Source: a virus. Taken from it: 21,079 nt of DNA. The stretch's first letter is position 1, and every line of letters begins with the position of its first letter. The translations under genes were made by a program, and so were the position numbers. The notes under the pieces are model-generated. The model did not search any database, was not told where the DNA came from, and was given only the letters and a program-made list of their open reading frames with translations. The stretch lies in the IMG/VR virus record IMGVR_UViG_3300046517_001833, positions 1 through 21,079 of that record. One strand, given 5' to 3'. Of the stretch, positions 1,099 to 9,002 are shown piece after piece.

Positions 1099-3414
1099 TT
1101 ATTGAACCTTATGTGTCAAAATCCTCACTAAATTGTCAGCGTGAGCGATTGACTCATCACTTTGTGTTCGTTGCGTTTCTGCGAGATAACGTAGCTCCTG
1201 CTCTTGTATCGCGCCTGCAACTTCCAGTTTTTCTGTCTCAAGTTTTTGAAGTGCTACTTGAGCATCCATCAATATTTTTTGTTGTTTAAGTCGTATTTCC
1301 TCCTCTTTAAGTTGAATTTCTTTTTGTTGCATTTGCATTTGTTGCTGCTGCATTTGCATTTGTTGCTGCATCATCATTTGTTCAGGTGTTGGCTGTCCTG
1401 ATTCGTGTGGCATCTTGCCAGTTTTTCCGGCTTCTATTATTTCAGGTGGAACAATCGTTTTTAATCGGTTCTTGATTTCGAGATTGTTTGAGAGTGGCAA
1501 GTTGTCTGCGTAGAGATCGGCCACAAGTTTAAATGTTTCAGGATCGGCTTGTAGAACTTCACGTAGTGACTGTAATGCTTGCTCTTTCTGTCCTTCAAAA
1601 CTTGGCCCTGCTTTGAGTCTTACTTCATAGGTGCCTTTTCGAATGTCGTTTTCGATAAGTTCGCCGTAATCATCAACTTGTTTGTTAACAGTGATATTCT
1701 TCATTCCTTCATCGGGCATCATAAGAGTGATTACCCGCTCGGAGTCATAAACTCTTGGTATCATCTCATTAACGATTGAACCCCCAGTAGTTATCGCTCT
1801 ATTTACTGAATTGAAAAAGCAATAAGTAGAATATGAGCCTTGGCGTGTTCTTGCATCTATTGCACTGCCTGATATTTCGTTTCCTTGTTGTCCTAATTGA
1901 GTAGGATATAACCCAGTAGCGAGATACAAATCTTGTATTGCTACTTCGTATTGTTGCAGCAATGAAGCTGAAAGTTCAGGAGGCCTTAATTGCTCAGGTT
2001 TAGCCCCACTGGGGCTTTCGTCATAAGTAAGTAAGCCTTGTATTGCATTGGGATCGCGCCAGTTTCTTTGGGTATCCAATCCCTGTACGTTCTTTTTACT
2101 TCCTATGAATTGGTCATAGCGTGATACTTTGAGAATGAATGCTGATTGTGTGCGAATATAATTAATGTATCGCTGCGTATCTCGACAATCACCAAAAAAA
2201 CTGCGACATATTTGTTTGCCATTTTTATCATAGAAACTATTTTGATCCATAAATACGACTGGTAGTTGTTCGGCGGGGAACTCGCCATCTTCTAAAATAT
2301 AATCACCTGCTATTTTGTAATGCCATATTTTATATGACTTAAATTTGCGCTTGTCTTCAATGCGTACAGGTTCACCGTCATCCCAAATAGTCATCATGTC
2401 GTAATCATTTCCTATGGGAATTTCTTGTACTTCCTCGGCATTAGAATCACCCATACTTGCTATTCCTTGGGCTTCCTTCTCCTCATTGGACATCATTTGG
2501 TTTTGAGCCCCCATGTCTGGCATTAAATCCATACCTGGCATTTCTTGTCCAATTGCAGCAGTTAAATCTAAATCATCTCGATTTTCTTCAAGCTGTGCAT
2601 TCATCTCTTTAGATTTTTCTATTAATTCGTCAAGCTCTTCTTGATTATAAGTTTTACCATTTGATAGCTTATAAAGCATATCATTTTCAAATTTGCGTTT
2701 AAAATGATCTATTATAGTAATAGCTTCATTGTCTGCCCATGTAAATGGGTCTTCACCTTCAGAAGGTTGCACTGCCAGCGCTATATCTTCTTTGCTTTGC
2801 GTAGGACTCATGGTCTTTGATATTTTTTCTTCTAAGTCTTTTCCGTATATCTCGCGGAACTTCTCGCGGCTCATACGTGAAATGTACCCACAGTACATGC
2901 CGTCCGTTTTGTTTGGAGTTTCTGCGCTAATGTCGAAGTATGTGCGGGTTGCGTCTTTAAAATGACCGTAGCAAATATCAAGATCAAATGAACGTTGATG
3001 TATGTAATCAGTTCCTAGAAAGAATGCGCTATAGCCTCCGATTGCTGCTTGTCCAGCGGCTACTTGATAAGCAATTGTTGCATCCGTTGAAAACATAACA
3101 TCTTTGACAATCAGTTCTCGCAAATGAGCTGTATTTTCGTCACAATTAGTCATGGGGACTACTTGAAGCTGTGGGGTATTTTGTTGCTGTTCCCCAAGCA
3201 AAGAGTTCGCCATAGCACCTAGTTTATTAGCAACCATCGGCACTTTACGAAATGTCTTAATCATGTCGTCCTCTTCTTCGTCCGTCCATTGCTGGCCTAG
3301 TAAAAAGGTATGCATTTCATGATATTGGTCAATATTAAACTTGAAATATTCGCCGCGCCACTTTTCGCAAGCCAAACGCGCTTCATGCGCGATTTTTTCC
3401 GCTTTCTTAGCCAT
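1099..3414 (-). CDS. Portal protein, P22-type
   Basis: This 771-aa protein is predicted to form the dodecameric DNA-entry ring at one capsid vertex. Its length and N-terminal style (helical start with KWRGEYFKF, then QQWTDEEEDDM and a VANKLGAMANSLLGEQ stretch) fit the P22 portal family, whose members are about 700-750 aa. The C-terminal tail from about residue 675 is a Met/Gln-rich coiled coil (MMMQQQMQMQQQQMQMQQ region, then charged heptads to about 750), matching the long helical barrel of P22-like portals. A low-complexity Met/Asp/Gly stretch lies near residues 290-320. It sits between terL and the scaffold. AAAGGA precedes the ATG. The Gln-codon repeats at 1320-1380 form a short simple-sequence tract. 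Confidence 0.88.
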   Translation of the reverse strand: MAKKAEKIAHEARLACEKWRGEYFKFNIDQYHEMHTFLLGQQWTDEEEDDMIKTFRKVPMVANKLGAMANSLLGEQQQNTPQLQVVPMTNCDENTAHLRELIVKDVMFSTDATIAYQVAAGQAAIGGYSAFFLGTDYIHQRSFDLDICYGHFKDATRTYFDISAETPNKTDGMYCGYISRMSREKFREIYGKDLEEKISKTMSPTQSKEDIALAVQPSEGEDPFTWADNEAITIIDHFKRKFENDMLYKLSNGKTYNQEELDELIEKSKEMNAQLEENRDDLDLTAAIGQEMPGMDLMPDMGAQNQMMSNEEKEAQGIASMGDSNAEEVQEIPIGNDYDMMTIWDDGEPVRIEDKRKFKSYKIWHYKIAGDYILEDGEFPAEQLPVVFMDQNSFYDKNGKQICRSFFGDCRDTQRYINYIRTQSAFILKVSRYDQFIGSKKNVQGLDTQRNWRDPNAIQGLLTYDESPSGAKPEQLRPPELSASLLQQYEVAIQDLYLATGLYPTQLGQQGNEISGSAIDARTRQGSYSTYCFFNSVNRAITTGGSIVNEMIPRVYDSERVITLMMPDEGMKNITVNKQVDDYGELIENDIRKGTYEVRLKAGPSFEGQKEQALQSLREVLQADPETFKLVADLYADNLPLSNNLEIKNRLKTIVPPEIIEAGKTGKMPHESGQPTPEQMMMQQQMQMQQQQMQMQQKEIQLKEEEIRLKQQKILMDAQVALQKLETEKLEVAGAIQEQELRYLAETQRTQSDESIAHADNLVRILTHKVQ

Positions 3415-5738: not shown

Positions 5739-5761
5739 TTATCCACAAAATCGGTGGATAA
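5739..5761. promoter_or_regulatory. DnaA-box inverted repeat in divergent control region
   Basis: A perfect DnaA box TTATCCACA (5739-5747) is followed by its near mirror GTGGATAA (5754-5761), giving 8-bp inverted arms around a 7-bp centre. It lies between the divergent late (minus) and dnaJ (plus) units, about 45 bp upstream of the dnaJ -35. It could be a DnaA-dependent control site or part of a second origin. Confidence 0.5.
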
Positions 5762-5803
5762 GTTTGAGGATAAAAACAAATAGATAAATATTAATGTTTA
5801 TTC

Positions 5804-5861: not shown

Positions 5862-6350
5862 ATGCATATAAATGATGCTTTAAAAATTTTAGGTGTAACT
5901 GGTGAATACGATCCAGAGATTATCAAGACTGCATACAGGAAAGCATGCTCACTTTATCATCCTGATAGAAACCCAGCAGGATTAGAAATGATGAAAATGG
6001 TTAATCAAGCTTATGATGCTCTTAAAAACGAAACAGGCGAAACTAAAATAGAGGGTGATTATTCATCATACGGGGAAGACCTAAATAATGCTTTAAACGC
6101 TGTTATGGGTTTTGGATTTGACATAGAAATATGCGGTGCTTGGATATGGTTGCATGGAGATACACGACCACACAAAGAAAAACTCAAGGAATCTGGTTTC
6201 AACTGGGCACCTAAAAAGAAACTCTGGTATTTCAGACCCGCCGATTATAAATCAAAAGGAAGAGGACAGTTTTCCATGGATGATATAAGGGCCTCCCACG
6301 GAAGCGAAAAGATAACAGAAAAAGAACGCAATAAACTGAGGGCGGCATAA
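5862..6350 (+). CDS. DnaJ-domain protein (J-domain co-chaperone-like)
   Basis: This 162-aa protein has an N-terminal J-domain (residues 1-55): IIKTAYRKACSLYHPDRNP contains the invariant HPD at 33-35 that stimulates Hsp70 ATPase. There is no Gly/Phe or zinc-finger region, so it is not a full DnaJ. The C-terminal part (about 85-130) has Trp-rich segments GAWIWLHGDT and FNWAPKKKLWYFRP, an arrangement seen in phage and mobile-element J-domain proteins. It probably recruits host DnaK for replication or virion assembly. It is the first gene of a plus-strand unit and has GAGGA before its ATG. The next gene starts in its stop codon (TAATG). Confidence 0.88.
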   Translation: MHINDALKILGVTGEYDPEIIKTAYRKACSLYHPDRNPAGLEMMKMVNQAYDALKNETGETKIEGDYSSYGEDLNNALNAVMGFGFDIEICGAWIWLHGDTRPHKEKLKESGFNWAPKKKLWYFRPADYKSKGRGQFSMDDIRASHGSEKITEKERNKLRAA

Positions 6351-7003: not shown

Positions 7004-7393
7004 ATGTCAGTAGAATTTACAAACGAACAAATAGATCACATTTGTTATCAAATCGGTGAGTGGTATTTGGATTGGGAACGCAAAATGTGGGTGGATGGCA
7101 AGCCCAATCAACATTGGCTAGGTGTTGCAAAAGAACAACTTAAAGAAATGATTTGTGGTAATGAATATACCGATAACAGCGATATACTAAAAAATGAGCT
7201 ATTTAATCAAAAAGAAATAGCCAAGATTTTAGTAAACGTTATGATGCTTTTAGGCATTATCCATGGGAACATAACGGCAATTCTCGCAAGTCCTGAGCAT
7301 GAAATGAAAAGCAAGCTCGATAAATTATGGCATAAATTAGCAAAAGAAATTGGCTTAATTTTCTGCAAAGAGCCGGCTACTTCAACACCTTAA
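7004..7393 (+). CDS. 129-aa hypothetical helical protein
   Basis: I place the start at 7004 ([12 protein letters not shown]) because AAGGAAAG lies just upstream. An in-frame ATG at 6974 lacks such a site and would overlap the previous gene. The protein is mainly helical and Trp-rich at its N-terminal half ([20 protein letters not shown]). A hydrophobic helix [20 protein letters not shown] lies around residues 74-93 and could be buried or membrane-associated. The last 17 bases overlap the convergent cold-shock gene. It is the last gene of the dnaJ-led unit. No family recognised. Confidence 0.65.
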
Positions 7394-7577
7394 CTTCTTT
7401 TGCGCAAGGGCCTTTGGGTGACGTTCCGGCCGTGAATTGCACCTTTTGGCCTTCTCTTAAACATTTAAATCCATCCTCTTGAATTTCCTTGAAATACACA
7501 AAATAATCTTTGTTCTCACTCTCAATAAAACCAAATCCTTTATCCTTATTAAACCACTTTACTATTCCAGTTTGCAT
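7377..7577 (-). CDS. Cold-shock domain protein (CspA-like)
   Basis: This 66-aa protein is one OB-fold cold-shock domain of the usual length. It begins [18 protein letters not shown], with RNP1 (KGFGFI) at residues 13-18. RNP2 is unusual: YFVYF at 25-29 replaces the typical VFVHF, so the conserved RNA-stacking His is Tyr. The C-terminus [13 protein letters not shown] follows the family pattern. Such proteins bind single-stranded RNA or DNA and melt RNA structures. It is the last gene of the replication-initiator unit and converges on the dnaJ-led unit. A GGAT element lies before the start. Confidence 0.93.
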
Positions 7578-8048: not shown

Positions 8049-8057
8049 TTATCCACA
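8049..8057 (+). promoter_or_regulatory. DnaA box at end of initiator gene
   Basis: A perfect TTATCCACA overlaps the initiator stop codon on the opposite strand. It lies about 500 bp from the iteron cluster. Probably a DnaA-binding site. Confidence 0.5.
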
Positions 8058-8960
8058 TTGTTTTTGTCTCCACGCACCTACCCAATCGTATCCGTTAACG
8101 CATTTTTTCCAGTTTTGAAAATCTTCTTGTGTAGGTATCCTGCTTTCTTTTACTTCTTTTTCAACTTCTTTTTCAAATCCTTTGGAATTAAAAGGCTCCC
8201 TATTTTCATAAACTTTAGTAAGAATATGTTTTAACCCACTAAAGCGCTGATATTTACTATGTTCATTAACTTGTTTCTCTACATGGTTGTTGCAATGAGC
8301 TAAAAACAATTCGTCACTGCGTTTATCCGTTGGAAGTTTGTAAGTAAGCAGTTCTTTTGTTTGTTCTTTAGAAAAAAAACTACTACTACTTTGTTGTGGT
8401 TCGATACTACTGCCCTCCACTGCACTAGCGATTAATTCTTCACCATTTTTGTTCTCTATTGTACAGGTGTCTATAATTTGAGCTTTGTTATCCACAACAG
8501 TAGTAGTAGTTTTTATTTCTTTATTTAACTTCTTATTATTATAGTCCGCTGGAGCGGACGTTGTACGTCCGGCCGAGCGGACGTTTACATCCGATTTACC
8601 GGACGTTTGAGCAATAATTATACTAACGTCCGGTGCAGCGGACATTGGTACAATATCAATGCAATCTGTTTCAATTATTTTCTGTGGTCTGATTAGATAT
8701 CTTTTGGCTCCTTTGCGTACCCTTTTGACTTCTCCATGACGTTCAAAGAAGCGTAAAGCTTCATATATCTGGCTGCGTTTAAGCGTTGTACGAGTGCATA
8801 AGGACTTTTCAGATAAGAAGCAAGCTTTGTTATGATTCCAAAATTGAAAGATAGCTTCATATACTTTTAAATAACCAAGAGATATATCTGGTAAATCAAG
8901 TATGTAAGAGGGAACAATGAAAAAAGCTGAGGTGTAGGTGTTGTGAATATGATCAGACAT
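8049..8960 (-). CDS. Replication initiator, lambda-O-like, with internal origin
   Basis: I start at 8960 (MSDHIHNTYTSAFF) because GAGG lies 10 bases upstream; the longer frame from 8987 has no ribosome site. The product is about 303 aa. An N-terminal winged-helix region (about residues 10-95) includes YILDLPDISLGYLKVYEAIF, then KACFLSEKSLCTRTTLKRSQ and YEALRFFERHGEVKRVRKGA. A low-complexity linker (about 105-200, rich in S, A, T and N) is encoded by the iteron-bearing DNA. A helical C-terminal part ends WVGAWRQKQCG and could recruit a helicase loader. This layout matches lambda O: DNA-binding N-terminus, origin inside the gene, partner-binding C-terminus. The family assignment is inferred from architecture. 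Confidence 0.7.
   Translation of the reverse strand: MSDHIHNTYTSAFFIVPSYILDLPDISLGYLKVYEAIFQFWNHNKACFLSEKSLCTRTTLKRSQIYEALRFFERHGEVKRVRKGAKRYLIRPQKIIETDCIDIVPMSAAPDVSIIIAQTSGKSDVNVRSAGRTTSAPADYNNKKLNKEIKTTTTVVDNKAQIIDTCTIENKNGEELIASAVEGSSIEPQQSSSSFFSKEQTKELLTYKLPTDKRSDELFLAHCNNHVEKQVNEHSKYQRFSGLKHILTKVYENREPFNSKGFEKEVEKEVKESRIPTQEDFQNWKKCVNGYDWVGAWRQKQCG
8488..8496 (+). promoter_or_regulatory. DnaA box next to iterons
   Basis: A perfect TTATCCACA lies about 48 bp from the first iteron, with an AT-rich tract (about 8508-8543) between them. DnaA box, AT-rich unwinding region and iterons together are the normal parts of a theta origin. Confidence 0.6.
8508..8646. other. Candidate replication origin: iterons plus AT-rich tract
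   Basis: About eight copies of a CGGACGTT/AACGTCCG-type half-site occur in 8544-8646. Clear ones are at 8553-8562 (AGCGGACGTT), 8565-8572 (ACGTCCGG), 8576-8585, 8599-8608 (CCGGACGTTT), 8625-8634 (AACGTCCGGT) and 8637-8646 (AGCGGACATT). GTCCGCT-GG-AGCGGAC at 8544-8559 is a perfect palindrome, and 8625-8646 is a near-palindrome. The cluster is GC-richer than its surroundings and is bordered at 8508-8543 by almost pure A/T. It lies inside the initiator gene, as lambda ori lies inside O. Confidence 0.7.
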
Positions 8961-9002
8961 GGTATAATTGCCTCGTTGTGTTCTCATGGTAAAGAACGTT
9001 TT

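Follow-up and report, generated by a model that had tools for sequence, protein, structure and literature searches.

Where does replication begin in an uncultivated phage, and what in its genome specifies the site? The question arises for a 21,079-bp IMG/VR virus record (the window, meaning the whole stretch of DNA analyzed), which encodes a portal protein, a terminase, RecT, a PDDEXK nuclease, and a helicase, and in which a replication initiator gene carries an array of repeats. The nearest annotated matches of the portal gene are P22-like, with ~28% identity to Vibrio phage VvAW1. We conclude, at a probability of roughly 90%, that the array serves as a theta origin of the lambda type, placed inside the gene for its own initiator, and that DNA-binding domain and iterons turn over together. 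The two would change together because they lie in one gene and are inherited or exchanged as one.

The initiator gene encodes an N-terminal winged-helix domain. It occupies 8049-8960 on the minus strand and specifies 303 amino acids from an ATG at 8960, the likely start, where relatives align (the mechanical ORF list puts the start at 8987). The protein matches the PHROGs for a DnaD-like helicase loader (1.8e-6) and a replication initiation protein (2e-5), as well as an O-like PHROG (E 0.0057); O-like PHROGs also match some relatives. Its Pfam HTH_36 match is weak, and HTH_36 is found in all 23 alignment members, the window among them. AlphaFold2 models residues 9-91 (8688-8936, minus) as a winged helix, with a mean pLDDT of 86 and helix 62-74 (8739-8777, minus) at the recognition position. 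The model of the whole protein has a mean pLDDT of 52.8 and is confident only for this domain; a C-terminal helical part, residues 198-302 (8055-8369, minus), is modeled at low confidence and is of varying type among relatives. Beside the gene, no helicase or loader was identified on this contig, itself a fragment, and the two adjoining small ORFs have no loader match.

The array within this gene consists of dyads. Set in register, it forms four imperfect 22-bp units, AACGTCCG-N6-CGGACGTT, spanning 8541-8646. In gene order these strandless units lie at 8625-8646 (core 8628-8643), 8586-8607 (core 8589-8604, one arm degenerate), 8564-8585 (core 8567-8582), and 8541-8562 (core 8544-8559), with starts 39, 22, and 23 bp apart. 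With 5-bp arms, three of the four cores are perfect and that of the second has one mismatch. CGGACGT occurs five times in the window, always inside 8555-8632, against 0.32 copies expected, and no shuffle out of 100 reaches five. An earlier note on this DNA had described six clear and about two degenerate iterons, some of them palindromic; the repeats are real, but their unit is the dyad. Since half-site plus spacer measures 11 bp, close-packed half-sites follow one another at roughly one per helical turn, their orientation alternating. The array overlies the part of the gene encoding a linker, as that note had also held, and residues 95-213 are predicted to be disordered (pLDDT under 50).

We found the same arrangement in 23 related phages. 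Scans of viral contigs returned 23 loci with a related N-terminal domain, or 22 without L019, which is near-identical to L018; L046 was added through another part of the domain, giving 24 phages with the window. L019, L029/L030, and L040 were dropped before counting, as were duplicate loci of the same contigs (L002-L005, L031-L039, L041-L045, and L047-L050). L029 and L030, from Saprospiraceae MAGs, were the sole returns of a genome scan, each a weak 50-residue match, and were set aside. Neither tblastn of cultured phages with the window protein and the N-termini of L009 and L017, nor tblastn of plasmids with the N-terminus of L020, gave a match. Stray array copies were removed from L017, L021, and L028, and registers were set by hand for L024 and L027, the latter differing slightly between the divergence-tracking and residue-base tests described below. 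Arrays are irregular in L018 and L025 and weakly dyadic in L027. Tests on regular arrays omit these three and are given alongside results for all 24; both the register of the arrays and the choice of which to call regular were made after the data were seen.

Array geometry is conserved while the dyad sequences mostly differ. In all 24 phages the array follows the winged-helix domain at the same place in the gene, with the best dyad-pair score at gene position 291-416, and the final two dyads start 23 bp apart in 20 phages and 22 bp apart in 4. Half-sites read GTCCG in six phages and GTCTA, TTCCG, GGCCG, TCTCG, TATCG, TACCG, GGGCG, CGCCG, CCTCG, and more in the others. Dinucleotide shuffling places 22 of the 24 arrays above all 60 shuffles (L024 is reached by 2/60 and L025 by 3/60). 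The linker peptide is unconserved among these relatives, and array geometry and AT-rich element are kept; the 23 relatives are thus the reverse of what the earlier note had named as refuting, homologs that keep the linker and lose the iterons.

This pattern bears on whether the repeats might arise as a side effect of selection on the protein, for a linker peptide that is repetitive and of low complexity. The linker is indeed predicted to be disordered and holds many small and polar residues. Intervals of 22 and 23 bp, however, are not multiples of 3, so adjacent dyads are read in different frames (displayed for four genes), and the peptides vary among relatives. Moreover, when codons were shuffled synonymously, preserving the protein, none of 60 shuffles reached the array score in 21 of the 24 genes, and one in 60 did so in each of L008, L024, and L027. 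We consider a peptide-level origin of the repeats hardly credible. Conservation acts on the DNA and not on the peptide.

An AT-rich element adjoins the last dyad and also bears a signature of selection on DNA. This putative unwinding element (8497-8543, minus; conserved core 8517-8543, TATAATAATAAGAAGTTAAATAAAGAA on the coding strand) is 83% A+T, a value equaled or exceeded by 1.7% of 47-mers in the window, in agreement with the earlier note's AT-rich tract. It opens with C/TATAATA directly after the last dyad core in 18 of 24 phages, and repeats AAGAA 13 nt apart in 15 of 24. We counted codons in the 19 genes with an ordinary element, omitting five. In 18 of the 19, the element has Lys-AAG as codon 4, compared with 105 of 469 Lys codons (22%) elsewhere in the same genes, and its Ile codons are ATA in 11 of 12 cases, compared with 124 of 346 elsewhere; codon 8 is AAG in none of 15 genes. 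The bias at codon 4 points to a DNA-level constraint.

Dyads bound by winged-helix dimers are typical of operators, and the DNA-binding domain here is HTH_36-like. The protein might accordingly repress or block its own transcription at these sites, with the origin elsewhere. Against this, all 24 genes have these sites ~300-400 bp into the gene and not at a promoter. The exact consensus dyad, present inside the array in 17 of 21 scanned loci, occurs outside it in none of the 21 (17 informative). An element conserved at the DNA level adjoins the dyads, and the iterons of the lambda O gene, which have the same layout, are an origin. An operator is thus an improbable reading, and we continue to favor an internal origin.

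DnaA boxes are an accessory feature of these arrays. An exact box, TTATCCACA, lies beyond the AT-rich element at 8488-8496 (plus), where the earlier note had placed a perfect DnaA box alongside the iterons. By itself it is weak evidence, since the window holds 10 matches with at most one mismatch against 6.95 expected, and at least 10 turn up in 18 of 100 shuffles. Close to the arrays of the family, at distances up to 130 bp, TTATNCACA occurs in 7 copies against 0.98 expected from the flanks (P 7e-5), at constant strand relative to the gene and varying place. Although enriched, a box near the array in just 7 of 24 phages indicates an optional component; the box itself stands, but its role as a general part of the origin does not.

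Repeats also flank this box. The arms of a 19-bp inverted repeat, (ACT)n/(AGT)n, lie at 8372-8390 and 8499-8517, one of them adjoining the box, and L006, L010, L014, and L022 carry similar ACT or TAG runs after the AT-rich element. DnaA-trios are defined, in PMC6669920, as 3'-GAT-5' trios that come after a DnaA box on the strand running away from that box. We rejected a trio reading of the TAG repeats beside the box, as their polarity is opposite to that definition and just 1 of 24 phages combines a box with an ACT/TAG repeat.

Two further exact boxes lie in the window, at 5739 and 8049. The copy at 8049-8057 overlaps the stop codon of the initiator gene. The other begins a cluster of one exact and two near boxes within 35 bp (5739-5773), in the intergenic region before a gene for a DnaJ-domain protein (5862-6350; Pfam E 2.6e-11) that is kept in 13 related contigs. 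A cold-shock domain protein is encoded farther along (7377-7577; Pfam E 3.7e-21). Could the true origin be this cluster, together with its A+T-rich stretch (5739-5800)? Of 13 relatives with the DnaJ gene, 5 have an exact box before it, including one that is near-identical to the window, but the other 8 have none there, and the site is without initiator-specific iterons. With its TTGACA and an ATGTCG-N5-CGACAT that resembles an operator, it also looks like a promoter, so that regulation by DnaA would explain it more simply. We therefore regard an origin at this cluster as marginally less probable even than an operator function for the dyads. GC skew, one of the checks proposed in the earlier note, does not mark the array: the cumulative minimum falls near 10 kb, not 8.5 kb. 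Skew follows gene strand in this window and is thus uninformative about the origin.

For the internal origin that we favor, the predicted sequence of events is as follows. Dimers of the winged-helix domain would bind each N6-spaced dyad via the recognition helix, and three or four dyads with half-sites ~11 bp apart would assemble a nucleoprotein complex. This complex would open the adjoining A+T-rich tract, the C-terminal domain would recruit helicase-loading functions, and replication would start at the array. In some phages, a DnaA box might assist.

Half-site sequence covaries with the predicted recognition helix. Allowing for the rest of the domain, residues 62-69 track half-site divergence better than any other 8-residue window of the domain (partial r 0.65, 0/2000 permutations, n=24), and do so after thinning (partial r 0.59, 1/2000 permutations, n=17). 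Among the 21 phages whose arrays are regular, the identity of residue 66 predicts half-site base 2 without exception (mutual information 1.75 bits): Tyr or Cys occurs with T (11), Lys with G (4), Ile or Gln with A (3), and Asn or Ser with C (3). Permutation maxima reached the observed value in 0/1500 cases for these 21 phages and in 3/1500 for all 24, although such permutations leave shared ancestry in place. The phages that break the rule are two of the three with irregular arrays: L018 (Q66 with T) and L025 (K66 with A). Residue 69 is associated with base 1 equally strongly (0/1500 in both sets), so the association is not confined to one residue. When the helix is left out of tree building, base 2 requires 8 changes and residue 66 requires 11, and just 1 of 21 inner branches is well supported. 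Independent co-changes are thus poorly countable, and a paired test on supported branches was left with a single pair for each contrast, which does not suffice for a sign test. The apparent residue-base association is probably new; searches of open-access literature, from which subscription journals are mostly absent, listed no paper on it or on the N-terminal family, a result that does not establish either as unpublished.

These phages may amount to a natural collection of initiators and origins that are specific for each other, with a readable code in which residue 66 would set base 2 and residue 63 would influence bases 4-5. Iteron specificity might then turn over fast, by point change and by swapping of DNA-binding domain/origin cassettes, perhaps to escape origin-based interference such as origin decoys, incompatibility, satellites, or origin-directed nucleases. 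We offer this extension tentatively and hold it to be somewhat doubtful. Origin decoys are able to stop lambda (PMC4488673), and a nuclease can mimic the specificity of an initiator (PMC8263062); these precedents make interference plausible, and no more, as a cause of fast turnover. About a dozen distinct matched protein-DNA pairs on one scaffold would make joint change of specificity in initiator and origin, without a non-functional intermediate, a testable process, and matched pairs could serve as orthogonal replicons.

The closest precedent in layout is lambda, as the earlier note had recognized. The lambda ori also places dyad iterons mid-gene in its initiator, gene O, their annotated starts being spaced by 20, 24, and 23 bp; a purine-skewed tract rich in A+T lies on their 3' side (layout as given in PMC4488673 and PMC7466680). 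That tract is 76% A+T and 69% purine in lambda, compared with means of 82% and 68% in 19 genes of the family. The amino-terminal half of O binds the lambda iterons, according to PMC4488673. The family differs from lambda in an iteron sequence that is unrelated, as previously stated, in its N6 center, in arrays of mostly three or four dyads, and in the DnaA box of 7 of 24 phages. Its N-terminal domain is weakly like Phage_rep_O (Pfam, 4 of 23 members, best E 0.0092), and its C-terminal parts span eight blastp groups. Cultured O-like initiators (PAJU2, Sulfitobacter pCB2047-A, Vibrio 1.167.O, and others) likewise carry in-gene repeats, near gene position 300-400. With lambda counted in, six of the eight cultured initiator genes beat all 40 shuffles (Erysipelothrix SE-1 was reached by 1/40 and Xanthomonas SAC by 5/40). 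In tblastn comparisons with the family, their C-terminal part was matched only in the L024 and L011 searches, and the N-terminal part never. Our results add an uncultivated phage family, in all likelihood, to those with a lambda-style internal origin. Older work exists on the type specificity of lambdoid origins and on RepA_N evolution.

Plasmid initiators provide the closest fold. The nearest solved structures to the window domain are plasmid Rep N-terminal domains, one of them in a Rep-DNA complex, and the similarity is by fold only (14% identity, E 8e-4). In the RepA_N plasmid pSK41, four Rep boxes lie inside rep and are bound by a winged-helix N-terminal domain, with a dispensable linker, and the pPR9 Rep is a chimera of a phage-like PF13730 N-terminal domain and a pSK41-type C-terminal domain (PMC5703833). 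pSK41 thus shares with the window both its N-terminal fold and boxes over the linker; these Rep systems, however, belong to staphylococcal plasmids and this family to phages, and RepA_N (pfam06970 in PMC5703833) has no Pfam match among 23 family members. In the PLE satellite, the DNA-binding domain of RepA covaries with semi-palindromic iterons and the C-terminal domain is kept, per PMC8263062. DNA-binding domain and iterons change together there as here, but the PLE origin is intergenic and is described with two specificity groups (same source). Given a lambda-ori layout and a RepA-type fold, we class the locus as an internal origin, neither RepA_N nor a proven homolog of lambda O. This kind of origin is already known from lambda O and pSK41 Rep; the N-terminal family was new in these searches.

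Different initiator types, each with its own array, occupy one locus. By blastp (E 1e-4), N-terminal domains of the family form one group and C-terminal parts eight. The 13 contigs carrying the window's DnaJ-domain gene had no match to the initiator N-terminal profile (positive control 4/4). One of these contigs, L059, is near-identical to the window but fragmentary, and further fragments may likewise stop short of the locus. We read the locus in four of the 13 (L072, L073, L074, and L075), which encode initiators of three other N-terminal types, those of L073 and L075 being 45% identical to each other. Their backbone is related to that of the window: DnaJ is 75-78% identical in all four, RecT 83-85% in the two holding it, and ORF103, next after the initiator, is kept in all; the small terminase of L075 differs (28%). 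Repeats are arrayed inside each of the four initiator genes at a level unmatched in 100 shuffles, and in L074 TGTGGATAA lies next to the array. L072 combines a window-type C-terminal part (36% over 89 residues) with another N-terminal domain and other repeats. In all four stretches the initiator is the most repeat-dense ORF (in L072 tied with an overlapping opposite-strand ORF).

In the window, the initiator ranks second of 19 ORFs in repeat density, behind the Gln-rich portal gene (1099-3414), which has a repetitive, Gln/Met-rich C-terminal stretch. One of the loci set aside, L040 (8355-9080), encodes an initiator whose N-terminal domain and in-gene repeats both differ from those of the family, and these repeats are followed by nearly the same AT-rich element. 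This arrangement suggests that the AT-rich element may be common to several initiator types.
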